A stretch of DNA of 30,358 nt from a virus. A program made the position numbers and the translations under genes. The DNA is taken from the IMG/VR virus record IMGVR_UViG_3300037847_005766, positions 1 to 30,358 of that record; one strand, written 5' to 3'. Of this stretch, positions 3,670-30,358 are shown piece by piece; positions within the stretch are counted from its first letter, which is position 1; the number at the start of each line of letters is the position of its first letter. The notes beneath the pieces were generated by a model, which ran no database searches, was not told the origin of the DNA, and worked only from the letters and a program-made list of their open reading frames with translations.

Positions 3670-3687
3670 ATTTTCTCAAAATAATGT

Positions 3688-3716
3688 TTGCAATCTCATT
3701 CTCATTCGCATACAAT
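3688..3716 (+). promoter_or_regulatory. Promoter P2 of the replication unit
   Basis: TTGCAA (3688-3693), a 17-nt spacer and TACAAT (3711-3716). The region TCATTCGCATACAATGAA (3702-3719) overlaps the -10 and matches the reverse complement of the P1/P5 box at 13 of 18 positions, and promoter P4 at 16 of 18. The leader ends in ACAAGGAGCAACAATG. Confidence 0.75.
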
Positions 3717-3741: not shown

Positions 3742-4803
3742 ATGCAATTTACACCAATAACCCACACCGACATCCAAACGATGAGCGAGATGCCCAAGGC
3801 CTCGATCCTCGTTTGGCTCAAGCTTCGCATCTATGCCGGCCAAAACGGCAAGGCATATCCAACAAGATCAAAGATCGCCGAAGATCTTGGCTTGTCGATT
3901 CCATCCGTAAATCGTGCTTTTCAAGACCTCGAAAAGAGAAGCATGATCACAAAGATCAACAATCACGGGGTGATCAAAAATGCACAGTACATGATCAAAA
4001 ATGATCAGTCACTAATCAGAAATGATCACTCGAACAGATCAGAAATGATCAGTGGCACTGATCAAAAACGATCAGTGGATGTGATCAAAAATGATCAACA
4101 GAATAAAGAAAGTAATAAAGAAAGTAATAAAGAAAATAATATTGCTTGTAGTAAAGACAATACTTCTTCTTTTGCTTTTGAGAGGGCGGCAACAAGTGCC
4201 GCACAGGTTGAGGCACTGGATGGCAGTGATGAGCGGGATCTTTGGTTGGCAGAGCTTTGGGCAAAACATGCAACCACACAGGGATGGATCTCTTCTGATA
4301 TCCCCAAAGATTTTGCCATGATCAAAGAAGGTCTTGAAGTCATACAGATCGCAAAGGTTGTGCGCAAGCTAGATGCGTATATTACCCGTGAGCAATGCAA
4401 CGGCATGTACCAAGGGAAAGGATGGGCACGTAAGATCCGTGATCGATGGTGTGCGAAGGAATCCAAAAGCGTGAGCAAATACGATCGTAAAAAAATGAGT
4501 GAATCCACAATCATGATCGGGCAAGAGAAGCAACAAGCCGAGAAAGAAGCACAAGAACACCAAGAGCAGATCAAAAGGGCGGCGGCGGTGTCAAAGGCTA
4601 CCAAGAGCAAGGCGGCGGCGTTGTGGGCTGATTTTGTGGCTCGATTCGACAACTACGAAGAGCGTGCCAATGCGGTCTTTGAGTGGAGGCGATCCGGTGG
4701 ACTTACCGATGAGGTACGTAAGGAGATAAAGAGCGATCCCGATCTCTTTGATTTTGATATGCTTTGTGATGTTCCTGTGTATCCTATGAGAGGTGAGGCA
4801 TGA
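3742..4803 (+). CDS. Replication initiator-like winged-helix protein carrying the putative origin
   Basis: 353 residues. The N-terminus (~10-75) has a helix-turn-helix of the HTH_36/phage replisome-organiser type: ILVWLKLRIYAGQNGKAYPT, then RSKIAEDLGLSIPSVNRAFQ and DLEKRSMI, with the recognition helix at SIPSVNRAF. Residues ~77-135 are a hydrophilic linker made of DNA-level iterons (IKNDQSL, IRNDHSN) and NKES repeats. The C-terminal half is helical and charged (~140-350). Initiators of this plan bind iterons and recruit the host helicase or its loader. Linker-encoded iterons are known from lambda O. It is first in a unit of three genes (ATGA overlap with the next). Strong AAGGAG precedes ATG 3742. 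Function is inferred from HTH, repeats and position; no helicase gene is visible. Confidence 0.8.
   Translation: MQFTPITHTDIQTMSEMPKASILVWLKLRIYAGQNGKAYPTRSKIAEDLGLSIPSVNRAFQDLEKRSMITKINNHGVIKNAQYMIKNDQSLIRNDHSNRSEMISGTDQKRSVDVIKNDQQNKESNKESNKENNIACSKDNTSSFAFERAATSAAQVEALDGSDERDLWLAELWAKHATTQGWISSDIPKDFAMIKEGLEVIQIAKVVRKLDAYITREQCNGMYQGKGWARKIRDRWCAKESKSVSKYDRKKMSESTIMIGQEKQQAEKEAQEHQEQIKRAAAVSKATKSKAAALWADFVARFDNYEERANAVFEWRRSGGLTDEVRKEIKSDPDLFDFDMLCDVPVYPMRGEA
3971..4104 (+). repeat. Iteron array, six copies of 21/23 bp (putative replication origin)
   Basis: Units begin at 3971, 3992, 4013, 4036, 4059 and 4082. Each is built as a TGATCA-like half-site, AAAA(T/C) linker and a second TGATCA half-site 10 bp on, often followed by GTGG. 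The second half-site of the first unit is degenerate (TGCACA). Nine TGATCA palindromes occur within 3944-4097. Spacing changes from 21 to 23 bp, so the reading frame shifts between units while the DNA motif is kept. That indicates selection on DNA, not on protein. Confidence 0.85.
4102..4137 (+). repeat. Three tandem 12-bp AT-rich repeats (putative DNA unwinding element)
   Basis: The unit AATAAAGAAAGT occurs at 4102, 4114 and 4126 (the last ending AAAT), directly downstream of the iterons, and the AT-rich stretch continues to about 4180. The order iterons then purine-biased AT-rich repeats resembles lambda ori and plasmid iteron origins. It encodes NKESNKESNKEN in the linker of the initiator. 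Confidence 0.75.
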
Positions 4804-5126
4804 GAGGCGAATATATCGTAGGCGACAAAGCCTTTGCAAAAACCGAGTTTTGTCGTGTTGCGTTGTTGGGTGAGATTACCCGTATTGATGGCAACATGTG
4901 TTCTCTCAAGATGTGCGGATATGATCCCAAACGGCGGTCCTCAATAATACCGCATACCATCACAACACGGCTCGATCTGCTTGATCCTCATGCAGATGTT
5001 ATTAAGAGATGGGAGAGCAAGGCGATGGATTTCGAGATCACAAAAACGAGGGTTGAGATATCAAAGCTTGCGGATAAACTCAAGGAGGCAATGAGACATG
5101 ACAAAGAAATCATATGGAAGCCCTAA
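4800..5126 (+). CDS. Hypothetical protein, 108 aa, in the replication unit
   Basis: 108 residues starting at ATG 4800, overlapping the initiator stop by four bases, so translation is coupled. The N-terminal half looks like a small beta-barrel (YIVGDKAFAK, VALLGEITRIDGNMCSLKMC) and the C-terminal ~35 residues form a charged helix (DFEITKTRVEISKLADKLKE). Family not recognised. Position after the initiator suggests a replication accessory factor, without direct evidence. Confidence 0.82.
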   Translation: MRGEYIVGDKAFAKTEFCRVALLGEITRIDGNMCSLKMCGYDPKRRSSIIPHTITTRLDLLDPHADVIKRWESKAMDFEITKTRVEISKLADKLKEAMRHDKEIIWKP

Positions 5127-9917: not shown

Positions 9918-11519
9918 ATGAGTGATCTCTTTAATGTTGTAAGACCTGCTTTGTTGCTTCGCAAACCTCTTGAGAAGGGTTTGACCATTGCACAAAACGT
10001 GCTCAAACATGGCACGGGTGCGCTCAATATAGATGGTTGTCGTTTTGGGTATGGTGATCCGTGTTGGGTTGGTGGTGAGTATTCATATCGAAAAAATTAT
10101 CTTGATAAAGATGGCAATCAAGAAAAAGGCTCAGGTAAGTCAATGTTTTTGGGTGATTCTTATGCCATAAAAAGATCGCATAAACACCCCGAAGGCCGAT
10201 GGCCTGCAAACCTATATCAATGCAGTGGTGAAGATACACCCTCAAACACAATAAACAATAAAACAAGGATAGATATGACTGATCAAGATATGTGGCACGA
10301 TATGCCAACCGCAAAGATCATGCATGGCAATTGCATGGATCTCCTCAAAGAACTACCCGATTGCAGTATCGATGCAATTGTAACCGATCCACCGTACGGC
10401 ATGTCGCCCGATGGTATCGCCCGCACATGGGCTGATATCGAAGAGGGGCGCAAGATGAAGGGTTTTATGGGCAAGGAGTGGGATGCCGCTGTGCCTTGTC
10501 ACAACTTCTTTGCGGAGTGCTTTCGGGTCTTGAAGCATGGCGGGCACATGATAGCCTTTTCCTCAACACGCACGGTTTGTGCTTTGGGTATGGCCGCACA
10601 AAAAGGCGGGTTTCGAATCCGTGATATGATCCATTGGTGCTACTTCTCAGGATTCCCAAAGTCGCACGATATAAGCAAAGCGATTGATCGTGAGGCGGGT
10701 GCGGTGCGTGAGGTTGCACACCTTAAAGGCAAGAGCGGAAAAGATCGCATGTGTATGCAAGGAGACTTTGCAGGAGAGTATTTTGAAACAAAACCCGCAA
10801 CACAAGACGCACAAAAATGGGCGGGTTTTGGTACCGCCCTCAAGCCCGCTGTTGAGCCTGCTTTGTTACTTCGCAAGCCGCTTGAGAAGGGTTTGACCAT
10901 TGCACAAAACGTGTTGAAACATGGTACGGGTGCGCTCAATATAGATGGGTGTCGGTTTGGTTATGGTGATCCTTGTTGGGTAGGGTCTCAAGAGATTGTT
11001 AGCAATCATGGGAGAAGTGGTAAGAGTGTTGGCACATCATGGAATTTAGGAAAAGCTGAGCCAATGCAAACAGATGGTCAAAAAATAGGCCGATGGCCTG
11101 CAAACCTTTATCAATGCGCCAAAGCCTCACGATCTGAGCGTGAAGAGGGGCTTGAGCATCTCGAATCCAGAAGCGGTGCGGATACCGTCCACCGCAAAGA
11201 AGGATCGGCAGGTCTTGAGAATCCAAGAGCGGGCGCAGGTCGAACCGCAAACGAGGTGCGCAACATACATCCCACAGTCAAGCCGATCAAGCTAATGCGT
11301 TGGTGTTGTCGATTGATAGGCGGGCAAAAGGGATCTGTGATCCTCGATCCGTTTTGTGGAAGCGGCACAACGGGTGCGGCCGCCATCCTTGAGGGTTTTG
11401 ATTTTGTGGGTATGGAGATCACGCCCGAATACTTGCCGATTATCAACGGTAGACTACAATGGGCAAGAGAGGAATACAAAAGAGAGAACGCACAACTCAG
11501 CCTCTTTGGGGGTATGTAA
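9918..11519 (+). CDS. DNA methyltransferase (N6-adenine/N4-cytosine type) with duplicated internal segment
   Basis: 533 residues from ATG 9918. Catalytic motif TDPPYG is at ~156-161 and the AdoMet-binding DPFCGSGTTG at ~477-486, the order of the beta-type amino-methyltransferases. HPTVKP (~451) precedes the latter, as is usual. The conserved segment ending in CWVG occurs at residues ~314-356 in its normal place between the motifs and again at ~10-52 near the N-terminus. Both copies are followed, after unlike stretches, by GRWPANLYQC (93-102 and 391-400). An alternative start at ATG 10275 with AAGGA 5 nt upstream would give a normal 414-residue enzyme and leave the first copy outside it. It probably protects phage DNA from host restriction or modifies packaging sites; target sequence unknown. 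Confidence 0.93.
   Translation: MSDLFNVVRPALLLRKPLEKGLTIAQNVLKHGTGALNIDGCRFGYGDPCWVGGEYSYRKNYLDKDGNQEKGSGKSMFLGDSYAIKRSHKHPEGRWPANLYQCSGEDTPSNTINNKTRIDMTDQDMWHDMPTAKIMHGNCMDLLKELPDCSIDAIVTDPPYGMSPDGIARTWADIEEGRKMKGFMGKEWDAAVPCHNFFAECFRVLKHGGHMIAFSSTRTVCALGMAAQKGGFRIRDMIHWCYFSGFPKSHDISKAIDREAGAVREVAHLKGKSGKDRMCMQGDFAGEYFETKPATQDAQKWAGFGTALKPAVEPALLLRKPLEKGLTIAQNVLKHGTGALNIDGCRFGYGDPCWVGSQEIVSNHGRSGKSVGTSWNLGKAEPMQTDGQKIGRWPANLYQCAKASRSEREEGLEHLESRSGADTVHRKEGSAGLENPRAGAGRTANEVRNIHPTVKPIKLMRWCCRLIGGQKGSVILDPFCGSGTTGAAAILEGFDFVGMEITPEYLPIINGRLQWAREEYKRENAQLSLFGGM
9945..10073 (+). repeat. Duplicated methyltransferase segment, copy A
   Basis: It encodes 43 residues from PALLLRKPLEK to DPCWVG and matches 10857-10985. 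The proteins are identical while 11 codons (12 bases of 129) differ, all silently. A second short matched block (GRWPANLYQC) closes each copy, at about 10194-10223 and 11088-11117; the sequences between them are unrelated. Confidence 0.95.
10857..10985 (+). repeat. Duplicated methyltransferase segment, copy B
   Basis: The copy in the usual position between the catalytic and AdoMet motifs of the enzyme. It is paired with 9945-10073, 912 bp upstream in direct orientation, and could be a substrate for homologous recombination or gene conversion. Confidence 0.95.
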
Positions 11520-11864: not shown

Positions 11865-14800
11865 ATGAGCAAAGATCTACCCGCAAAGCCCTTGAGTTTT
11901 TGGCAACGCATCACAAAAGCATTTGCAAAGCCTGTGGAGAAACCCGAGAGACCTGCGCATGGTGCGGACTGGGCACGCTCTCAAGGTGCTGCAAATCCTT
12001 ACCCCGTCAAGTTGTCGATGAGCGCATTTGCATCACATGGTTATGTATATGCGGCCGTATCAAGGGCATCACAAGACCTTGCCGCATTGCCGATCAAGCT
12101 TATACGAGGAAAAGGCGAGAATAGCGAGATCATCGAAGAGCATCCTTTCTTAGATCTCATGGACCAGCCATCAACGTATAAAGATGGCTTCTCGTTTCGT
12201 GAGCAGTTGATTGTTGATCTTATGCTCTCAGGTGGGTGCTATGTGCTTCTTGCGGGTACAACCGATGTGCCCACGTCGCTCTTTCGTTTGCACCCTGAGC
12301 AAACCAAAATCATCACGGATCCGGTTGTAGGTATCAAGGGCTTTGAGTTTACCGATAGCGGCACAGCCGTTGAGTATCCCATAGATCGTGTCGTGTATGC
12401 CCAAAGCGCATCATGGGGCGCGGGTGTAGATTCCTTGTATGGGCTTGGCGGTGTCCAACCTTTACAGCGTGAGATCAGTGCGGATATAAGCGCACAAAAA
12501 CTTGCGGCCGATTCCTCGAAGAAAGGGCGTCCTGATATCCTCATATCGCCCGCAGATGAGGCGGATATTTGGGATTATGAGCAAAGACGTGCGATCCTTG
12601 ACGCATACAAAGGTATGAGTAGTGAAGGAGGCGCCATGGTGCTCAGTGGGCAGGTAAACGTGGAACCCCTGCAAATTTCTCCGAGGGACCTCGAGTTTCA
12701 AGCCGTGCGAGACTACACAAGGCAAGCCATTAGCGCTGTCTTTGGTGTGCCTCCTTCGGTATTGGGCGACAATAGCGCCAACTTTGCGGTGTCACGCCAA
12801 CAAGCCCAAAACTATTGGGAGGTGCAAACCAAAAGAGGCAAGAGGTTATCATTCTTGCTTACGCAGATCGCCAAACGCTTTGATTCTTCGTTTCGTGTTG
12901 AGGTGGATTATTCGGGTGTTGAGGCCTTGCAAGATATACGTAATGCACAGCTTGACCGTATCACAAAGCACATCCTCAACGGGATGGATGCGGGCGATGC
13001 GTACACCTATGAAGGTATGCAAGATGCACCCATTGTGCCTCTAGATGAGCGTGAATCACCCGCCGAAGATGTAGGCGATGAAGAAGGGCAAAACGTGCGG
13101 GCAATGGAGATGATTTTGCGCACCATCTCCAAAGACCAAAAGCAAGAGACGAACTATGGCCTCAAGAGCAACGCAAAAGAGGCGATGGATGCGCTACCTG
13201 AGGCAACGCAAAAGGGCTTAAAAAAAAAGGCCAAAGATCACAACGAGGATTACGGAGACAACCCAAAGAAGAGGCTAACGAATAGCAACTACTTGGCGGT
13301 GTCGTATTGGCGAGGTTTGGCCGCCTACGAATCTAACCCCGAAAGCGTGCGCCCATCGGTGTCCAGCGCCCAACAGTGGGGAATGGGGCGTGTCAACGGT
13401 TTATTGTATGCGCTTCGTACAGGCAAGTATCGAAGGCGGCCATATGATACGGACCTCTTGCCCGAAGAGCATCCGTTATCCAATGCCGAAGATGACAAGG
13501 AGCAAAAACACCTCATCTTTGGATACAAGGATCTTGAGCTTGCGCCAAAGGATGCCGCATGGGGCTTTACCAAAAGAGAGGCACGCAAGATTCTTGGCGA
13601 TGATCCCGATATGGAGCGATATGCACAGGCCTTCCTCTTTGTCAATCGAGGCGGCACAGATGATCCCGATGCCTATAAGCTACCGATCGCAAAGATGATC
13701 AACGGGGATCTCAAGGTGGTATTTCGGGGCGTGATTGCCGCAGGCTCATCGGTGCGAGGAGAACCTAAATTTGGAGCGGGTTTTTACAACCTGAGCGGAG
13801 CAACGCAAAAAGACAAAGAGCGTCTCTATGATGAAATCAAAGCCCTTTATGAGCGTTTTGGAGAGGCGGCACCGATCGCCCCGTGGGAAGAACCCGAAGA
13901 GAAAGCCGAGGAGATCACCAACTTCCCCACAAGAGGTGATGATCGTGCGGTGTCGTTATCGAATAGTCAATACAGGGTTTTTGATGCGGACTATGCCAAA
14001 GACCTCAAAGATAATTGGCCTTCGATATGGCGCAAAGGTGGAAACATTGAGGGAAACAACCAGTATAGACGTCTTGAGCCTATCGTAAACAGGCAAGACA
14101 AGACACCCAAAACGGATACTGAGGAGATGGCAATCCGCAAGCGTGAGGCATGGGCGGCACGTCACTTGCAAGATTTTCGCTTGGCGGGCACGGTTGCACA
14201 GATCAAATGGTTTGTTGTGGGCGAGAAAGGTCAAGCCTACATGAAAGAGCTTATCGAGGAGGAAAAGCGCAAGATTGAGGGCAAGAAGGATCGATCGATG
14301 CGTTGGCGTGCATGGATCCAAAAGACGCAAAAGCCCGCCGAGAAAGCGATACAACGGGCGGTGTATAGCTATCTCAGAGAAGCCCGCAAAAGGTATATGG
14401 GAAGAGCAAGAGAGTACATACAAACCCAAAGAGGATACACGCCACAGGAGCGCAAAGCCGTGATTGATTGGGCATTGCTTTTGGGTATGGTTGACGAGGT
14501 GCGTATCCTCCAAAAGAGGCTAGGGCGTCAATGGTTGAGCGTGTGGAGTTTGGCGGGTAACGATGCTCTTCTTGATGTGTATGAGAGTGCGGGGAAAACG
14601 CTACCTCTCGATCTTACTTTTGGATCACGTGAGGCGGCCGTCGAGGCTTCGGATTTTACAGCCATGAACATCGCACAAACCACCGCCAACAAAATGAAAG
14701 AGGTTATCGAAAAGGGTTTGTTAGAGGGTGATTCCATCGATGAGATTGCGGGCAACATTTCGCAACATACCGCCTTTGGAATCAAGCGATCACGCACCAT

Positions 14801-15074
14801 TGCCCGCACCGAATCCACAAAAGCGATCAACCTCGCAAGTGAGCAGGCGTATAACACCGCACAGGCGGATGGGATAAAGATCCGTAAAGAGTGGTTATCG
14901 TCACGTGATGATCTTGTGCGTGAGACACATCAGGAACTCGACGGTCAGATCGTGGGCGTCAATGAGATGTTCGTGGTTCCTTCCACAGGTGCGCAAGGCT
15001 CAAGCCCGTCCAACTTCGGCGATCCGTCCGAGGATATTAACTGCAGATGCACTGTATTGCCGATCGTCGAATGA
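11865..15074 (+). CDS. Composite portal protein with inserted domains and C-terminal MuF head-morphogenesis domain
   Basis: 1069 residues, AGAGGTGA before ATG 11865. Residues ~45-390 are an HK97-type portal (HGYVYAAVSRASQDLAALPI, VFGVPPSVLGDNS, NFAVSRQQAQNYWE). The last ~230 residues carry the Mu gpF signature (RTIARTESTKAINLASEQAY, LSSRDDLVRETHQELDGQIV, ending INCRCTVLPI). Between them lie about 420 residues with three modules I have seen in phage head proteins but cannot name: ~428-540 (YLAVSYWRGLAAYESNP, QWGMGRVNGLLYALRTG, TDLLPEEHP), ~587-680 (AFLFVNRG, AYKLPIAKMINGDLKVV) and ~696-810 (DNWPSIWRKGGNIEGNNQYR, AIRKREAWAARHLQDFRLAG). Portals are normally 400-500 residues. The portal forms the DNA channel; MuF proteins are minor head proteins, sometimes injected. 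Confidence 0.92.
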   Translation: MSKDLPAKPLSFWQRITKAFAKPVEKPERPAHGADWARSQGAANPYPVKLSMSAFASHGYVYAAVSRASQDLAALPIKLIRGKGENSEIIEEHPFLDLMDQPSTYKDGFSFREQLIVDLMLSGGCYVLLAGTTDVPTSLFRLHPEQTKIITDPVVGIKGFEFTDSGTAVEYPIDRVVYAQSASWGAGVDSLYGLGGVQPLQREISADISAQKLAADSSKKGRPDILISPADEADIWDYEQRRAILDAYKGMSSEGGAMVLSGQVNVEPLQISPRDLEFQAVRDYTRQAISAVFGVPPSVLGDNSANFAVSRQQAQNYWEVQTKRGKRLSFLLTQIAKRFDSSFRVEVDYSGVEALQDIRNAQLDRITKHILNGMDAGDAYTYEGMQDAPIVPLDERESPAEDVGDEEGQNVRAMEMILRTISKDQKQETNYGLKSNAKEAMDALPEATQKGLKKKAKDHNEDYGDNPKKRLTNSNYLAVSYWRGLAAYESNPESVRPSVSSAQQWGMGRVNGLLYALRTGKYRRRPYDTDLLPEEHPLSNAEDDKEQKHLIFGYKDLELAPKDAAWGFTKREARKILGDDPDMERYAQAFLFVNRGGTDDPDAYKLPIAKMINGDLKVVFRGVIAAGSSVRGEPKFGAGFYNLSGATQKDKERLYDEIKALYERFGEAAPIAPWEEPEEKAEEITNFPTRGDDRAVSLSNSQYRVFDADYAKDLKDNWPSIWRKGGNIEGNNQYRRLEPIVNRQDKTPKTDTEEMAIRKREAWAARHLQDFRLAGTVAQIKWFVVGEKGQAYMKELIEEEKRKIEGKKDRSMRWRAWIQKTQKPAEKAIQRAVYSYLREARKRYMGRAREYIQTQRGYTPQERKAVIDWALLLGMVDEVRILQKRLGRQWLSVWSLAGNDALLDVYESAGKTLPLDLTFGSREAAVEASDFTAMNIAQTTANKMKEVIEKGLLEGDSIDEIAGNISQHTAFGIKRSRTIARTESTKAINLASEQAYNTAQADGIKIRKEWLSSRDDLVRETHQELDGQIVGVNEMFVVPSTGAQGSSPSNFGDPSEDINCRCTVLPIVE

Positions 15075-29995: not shown

Positions 29996-30358
29996 CTAGG
30001 TGAAATAAACCACGTGAACGGAATCGCCGTTGCTAAGGTTTCCGCCAAAACTCAAACGACACACACCGCCCGCACCGCCGGAAACGGCAACCGTATACTC
30101 GGATCCGTTACCCGCAGATCCGCCAATAGCGGTCATGTTGAGAGCGGCCAAACCATTGATATATACCATTACGCTATTCGCAAATCCTGCATCGAGTGTA
30201 CGGGCAAGATCAAGTGTTGAGGTGGAAGATCCTGATATCTGGAATCCTTCTTGAAAAAATGCGGCGCCTATTTTTGCGGCCGATATTGCATCATCTTGGA
30301 TGTTGGCTGTCTGTACGCAATTGCTCGATAGCTTTGCGTTTGAGATTCCGCCATCCTA
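29996..30358 (-). CDS. Tail fibre, C-terminal part (continues from base 1; 30260-30358 redundant)
   Basis: C-terminal 87 residues and TAG stop (29996) of the fibre that starts at 1263. The non-redundant part is 29996-30259; the rest repeats bases 1-98. It encodes the tip domain: FFQEGFQISG, LDLARTLDAG, VMVYINGLAALNMTAIGG, then GVCRLSFGGN and GDSVHVVYFT. The domain has a close relative in the 96-residue neighbour. A strong terminator follows on the minus strand. Confidence 0.9.
30260..30357. repeat. Terminal direct repeat, right copy
   Basis: Identical to bases 1-98. The length near a common assembler k-mer size makes an assembly overlap of a circularly mapping genome the simplest reading; a true 98-bp terminal repeat is less likely but not excluded. 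Confidence 0.95.

Follow-up and report, generated by a model that had tools for sequence, protein, structure and literature searches.

The O gene of phage lambda carries four to six imperfect inverted-repeat iterons in its middle, followed directly by an AT-rich tract, and the O protein is described as working by iteron binding, opening of the AT tract and recruitment of the helicase (PMC7466680). The same scheme of binding, AT-tract opening and helicase recruitment is described for gp38 of phage SPP1, whose oriL, in gene 38, has direct repeats and an AT-rich unwinding element within the gene for the origin-binding protein (PMC6316719).

The DNA analysed here (the window, 30,358 nucleotides from a virus) contains an initiator gene with six iterons and an AT-rich tract inside it, which, judged from the sequence, are very probably the replication origin of the phage. 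As in oriLambda and other lambdoid origins, the iterons lie in the middle of the initiator gene and the AT-rich tract follows directly, and the repeat detector used here peaks within O as well. The differences from lambda are that the window initiator is only remotely similar (O-like PHROG matches to its N-terminal part), that the iterons, of 16-20 bp, have unrelated letters, that no P-like loader was recognised, and that the phages are uncultured. SPP1 likewise has repeats and an AT-rich element within the initiator gene, but it has a second array, oriR, elsewhere, whereas the window has one array only, and it has a separate loader (gp39) and helicase (gp40), neither of which was recognised among the window proteins scanned. 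A further likeness is to gp53 of Acinetobacter phage AB1 (Obolenskvirus), a distant winged-helix initiator (30% over 86 aa) whose gene contains repeated GAACCC-N6-GGGWC dyads at an offset of about 324. AB1 differs in the letters of its iterons and in having its own DnaB-like helicase gene, which follows gp53. In this cultured phage (L073), the dyads CCCAAATTTGGG and CCCAATATTGGG are seen around 1740-1830, after the winged helix of gp53. The lambda/SPP1 kind of intragenic phage origin is already known; what is described here is almost certainly its presence across an unstudied family of uncultured phages.

The genome and its initiator gene

The window looks like a phage genome that is complete or nearly so. 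The 99 bases at either end (1-99 and 30260-30358) are identical at 98 positions, which implies a circle of 30,259 bp; the record is classed as linear despite this terminal direct overlap. Near-identical end overlaps are present in 4 of 10 related records, with partial overlaps in two more. The features discussed are listed in Table 1. The PF01555 methylase, found in 12 of the 15 related records, has a large insert between its motifs, and its closest solved structures are DpnA and CcrMI, matched over short stretches only. Among the tetramers, CGCG is nearly absent from the window (observed/expected 0.03) and CCGG strongly depleted (0.27). CGCG is also missing from record G008 (which holds locus L031), the sole apparently complete related record in which no PF01555 methylase was detected; GATC is not enriched there (zero-order observed/expected 1.09). 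In L033, L034, L036 and L037, which are distant relatives by their terminase, GATC hardly occurs.

Table 1. Coordinates of features in the window
Feature	Position	Strand	Remarks
Weak sigma-70-like promoter candidate	3687..3716	+	Upstream of initiator gene; count of such sites not above shuffles
Replication initiator gene, 353 aa	3742..4803	+	HTH_36 2.6e-8; PHROG replication-initiation and DnaD-like families
Initiator domains (AF2 model)			Winged helix aa 8-85; disordered linker aa 89-161; helical C-terminal domain aa 164-343
Iteron 1, TGATCAAAAATGCACA	3971..3986	+	Second half-site degenerate; overlaps wing-coding DNA
Iteron 2, TGATCAAAAATGATCA	3992..4007	+	Perfect
Iteron 3, TAATCAGAAATGATCA	4013..4028	+
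Iteron 4, AGATCAGAAATGATCA	4036..4051	+	Different reading phase
Iteron 5, TGATCAAAAACGATCA	4059..4074	+	Third reading phase
Iteron 6, TGATCAAAAATGATCA	4082..4097	+	Perfect
Putative DNA unwinding element, AT- and purine-rich	4102..4147	+	AATAAAGAAAGT x 3.3, then AATAATATT; TRF period 12, score 73
Next gene	4800-5126		No family match
N6/N4-type DNA methylase (PF01555)	10338-11516		Directly after terminase
1069-aa ORF	11865-15074		Downstream of terminase and methylase genes; possibly portal fused to head-morphogenesis-like region

A ribosome site, AAGGAG, can be read directly in the sequence at about 3731, upstream of the initiator gene. The AlphaFold2 model of the initiator has a mean pLDDT of 70.5, with a confident winged helix and a linker near 25-32. 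Most of this predicted disordered linker is encoded by the array and the AT tract, with the first, degenerate unit overlapping the wing-coding DNA. Among solved structures there are matches, all weak, to the winged helix only; for the C-terminal domain none was convincing.

All 15 initiators compared below match HTH_36 and the PHROG 'replication initiation (O-like)' family. In the window initiator the O-like profiles match the N-terminal part only (about aa 14-149, E about 3e-5 to 1e-3), there is no full-length homology to O, no P-type loader was recognised downstream, and the protein is not placed in the lambda O family proper. Nor is it assigned to the DnaD-like family: DnaD_N gave an E value of 0.035 and 14.7 bits, against a cut-off of 27, and the match to PHROG 186 ('DnaD-like helicase loader', 1.2e-9) is confined to aa 17-142. 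Among the proteins scanned, none encoded downstream of the initiator was recognised as a helicase loader or a helicase.

The iteron array and the AT-rich tract

The array consists of six 16-bp units of the form TGATCA-N4-TGATCA (consensus TGATCARAAATGATCA) at 3971-4097. Each unit is a dyad in which the GATC centres of the two half-sites are 10 bp apart, and successive units are spaced by 21, 21, 23, 23 and 23 bp. The phases of the units in the coding sequence are 1, 1, 1, 0, 2 and 1, so that all three phases are used and four of the six units share one. The coordinates, spacings and encoded peptides of the six units in the preliminary description are exact. Its statement that one half-site of each unit is degenerate holds for four units; in those at 3992 and 4082 both half-sites are perfect. 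A possible weak seventh unit, with GATCs 9 bp apart, is found at 3944 in wing-coding DNA, and is left out of the count of six.

The array is the strongest tandem array of the window, with a TRF score of 121. The next best, at 73, is the AT-rich 12-mer array at 4102-4141, and the best elsewhere in the window is 45. When the whole window was searched with TGATCARAAATGATCA, allowing up to three mismatches, there were six matches, exactly the six units, compared with 1.07 expected, and this count was reached in none of 100 dinucleotide shuffles of the window. Synonymous shuffles that preserve the protein reached the core count in 2 of 5000 cases and the TGATCA count in 6 of 5000. A TGATCA tandem like that of the window was looked for in viral contigs, and none was found.

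Directly 3' of iteron 6 lies the AT-richest 45-mer of the initiator coding sequence, at 84% AT, and the AT-richest 45-mer of the gene is in the same position relative to the array in 14 of the 15 initiators. The 12-mers are in frame (NKES), and from the window alone they might also be taken for a protein repeat. The AT-rich tract is nevertheless likely to belong to the origin element, the most direct evidence for this being the synonymous constraint found in a sister clade (see below).

Conservation of the array and alternative explanations

A direct search for close relatives of the window initiator and its two neighbours found none, and identity to the initiator is about 44% at most among its relatives. 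Starting from the large terminase, 35 related loci were reached, of which 12 have an initiator homologue, and an alignment search added two more. The resulting 14 relatives are initiators from uncultured phages of about 30 kb, making 15 with the window. A gene of Methylophilales phage MEP301 was rejected as a relative, having a weak winged-helix match and no detectable array. In a search of GTDB genomes for the host, the only match was a 23% terminase match on a Flavobacteriales MAG contig.

An array is present in all 15 initiators, at a coding-sequence offset of about 230-390, just after the winged helix, with 21-23 bp spacing and shifting phases. When each of the 15 loci was searched over 4-5 kb for self-matches at lags of 18-26 bp, the strongest was always inside the initiator gene, at offset 250-371. 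It exceeds all 200 base shuffles in 13 of them; in L013 and L031, 2 and 3 of 200 shuffles were as high. As a positive control, the O gene of lambda (DNA from a public record) gave its self-match peak within the gene at offset 379, where the known origin lies. The top TRF array of the whole locus is inside the initiator gene in 12 of the 15. It had been suggested that the same half-site array be sought in related initiator genes, and its layout is present in 14 of 14 relatives, with different letters. A relative that kept the initiator and lost the repeats would have counted against the origin, and there is none among the 15.

The units of the sister clade are GGATCA-N4-TGATCC (or GGATCATTTCTAAGCC). 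Those of L017, L028 and L031 are ATATCA-N4-TGATAT, those of L019 and L048 are dyads of the GATCTCA/TATCGCA-N4 type, those of L049 are ATACCA-N4-GGATAT, and those of L022 are GAGGAAAAAGTGATCCTC. As read from these genes, the site letters have been replaced several times, with no change in the architecture.

Synonymous divergence was compared along six sister-clade genes, which have GGATCA-type units rather than the TGATCA units of the window. Per comparable codon it amounts to 0.35 for the N-terminal and 0.36 for the C-terminal part of the gene, and drops roughly eightfold in the array and the AT-rich tract, to 0.046 in the former and 0.027 in the latter (codons 121-140). Amino-acid divergence in the same genes is not lowered over the array (0.175, against 0.16 in the N part and 0.27 in the C part). 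None of 20,000 random codon sets was as low as the array, and no 37-codon window outside it was as low. A dip at the same place, with small counts, is also seen in two pairs that are further apart, L019/L048 and L028/L017. Since only synonymous divergence falls over the array and AT tract, the DNA is under selection, and the earlier claim that the DNA motif rather than the peptide is conserved, for which this is the most direct evidence, stands for this closest set of relatives.

Four features of a lambda-type origin are found together: an initiator with an N-terminal DNA-binding domain, four to six dyad iterons that repeat about every two turns and are placed between the DNA-binding part and the C-terminal part, an AT-rich tract directly 3' of them, and conservation at the DNA level that is independent of the peptide. 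An iteron plus unwinding-element origin within the initiator gene, in the order known from lambda ori, had been proposed from the window, and the proposal is strengthened by its recurrence, with the array in 15 of 15 genes and the AT tract 3' of it in 14. The GC-skew check suggested at the same time is consistent with an origin but uninformative. In 11 of 11 records the skew to the immediate right of the array exceeds that to its immediate left, but in most of them a change of gene direction lies close by, and this confounds skew as an origin marker.

The array might instead be an operator through which the initiator regulates its own gene, by repression or timing, with replication starting elsewhere. 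Winged-helix proteins are often autoregulators, and a fold search with the initiator returned mostly winged helices of the MarR, ArsR and TubR types. An operator is usually at the promoter, however, whereas this array lies over 225 bp inside the gene. It is almost always followed by the AT-rich tract, with synonymous constraint in the set tested, and the protein families matched are replication initiators. We consider this explanation unlikely, and autoregulation can in any case coexist with an origin.

The array could also be a methylation-linked cluster of GATC sites, either under SeqA/Dam-like control or simply a product of GATC enrichment throughout the genome, which we judge to be very unlikely. 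It is true that the array, with 10 GATC in 140 bp, is the densest place in the window (72/kb inside 3944-4110 compared with 11.6/kb outside), that GATC is about threefold over-represented genome-wide (363 observed, 116 expected) and that the phage has a DNA methylase. In the window and most relatives (the window and records G001-G010 being compared), no palindromic tetramer is more over-represented than GATC (observed/expected 1.9-4.0); these statistics are first-order, since a maximum-order Markov model masks the enrichment, the counts of GAT and ATC being themselves inflated. Because the over-representation extends over the window genome and nearly all relatives, GATC density alone is weak evidence. 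GATC alone is not special in this genome, and what counts as signal is the dyad and its regular recurrence, which go beyond mere GATC density; relatives of the ATATCA, ATACCA and GAGGA classes keep an array without a GATC core. The suggestion that replication would be sensitive to Dam-type methylation does not hold as a family feature, given the genome-wide enrichment, the GATC-free cores of several relatives and a methylase of the PF01555 type.

A tandem repeat that arose at the protein level or by slippage, in which the linker grew by duplication and the likeness of the DNA reflects recent common descent, would fit the predicted disorder of the linker and the in-frame 12-mers (NKES repeats), but it is the least credible of the alternatives, as the spacing of the units shifts the frame in both the window and its relatives, constraint acts on synonymous sites and not on amino acids, and variable columns are rarer in the cores than in the spacers (9/80 vs 8/23, p=0.02).

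With the array and AT tract read as an origin, the winged-helix N-terminal domain of the initiator would bind each 16-bp dyad, whose half-sites are one helical turn apart. The repeat of 21-23 bp is about two turns, which would place the bound copies on one face of the DNA in a compact nucleoprotein complex. This complex may then strain the adjoining AT-rich 12-mers until they open; the host replicative helicase would be brought there by the C-terminal domain, directly or via a loader, and replication would start at this site. The array would be tolerated within the gene because the flexible linker that it encodes can read as almost any peptide.

Site letters and the winged helix

Six site classes are seen, namely TGATCA, GGATCA, ATATCA, GATCTCA, ATACCA and GAGGA. 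Among 11 representative genes, array similarity follows winged-helix identity (r 0.80; partial r 0.76 given the C domain; 0 of 5000 Mantel permutations), whereas its partial correlation with C-domain identity, with the winged helix accounted for, is 0.01. Arrays were compared ungapped; gapped DNA identity was dropped, its null being high. The helix PSVNRAF pairs with TGATCA, and P[ST]VRR[AS]F pairs with ATATCA in the three phages that have that helix. Since the array and the winged helix adjoin, simple linkage is a partial alternative and could account for some of this coinheritance.

The most telling natural experiment is given by L019, L048 and L049. L019 and L048 have winged helices that are 88% identical and arrays that are 76% identical, with C domains at 31%. 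L019 and L049, in contrast, share 75% in the C domain and 54% in the array, which is of a different class. It looks as though initiators had exchanged C-terminal domains, whether their winged helices and iterons agree or differ, much as if the origin served as the joint for recombination.

Tentatively, we suggest that the genes hold self-labelled specificity pairs, in which the recognition helix and all the iterons of an array may have switched together several times, dragging the coding frame along; this could well prove wrong. If the pairing is true, genes of this kind mined from metagenomes could reveal a recognition code for the winged-helix family with no need of a binding assay.

An origin, its initiator and its set of binding sites are predicted here with confidence from sequence alone, in a phage family for which no cultured relative was found. 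The lambda-style layout persists although the site letters have changed repeatedly. With protein and target in one gene, the initiator family is a ready-made set for specificity change, and it would be suited to studying how initiators and origins change specificity jointly, including the domain swaps at the origin seen in L019, L048 and L049.
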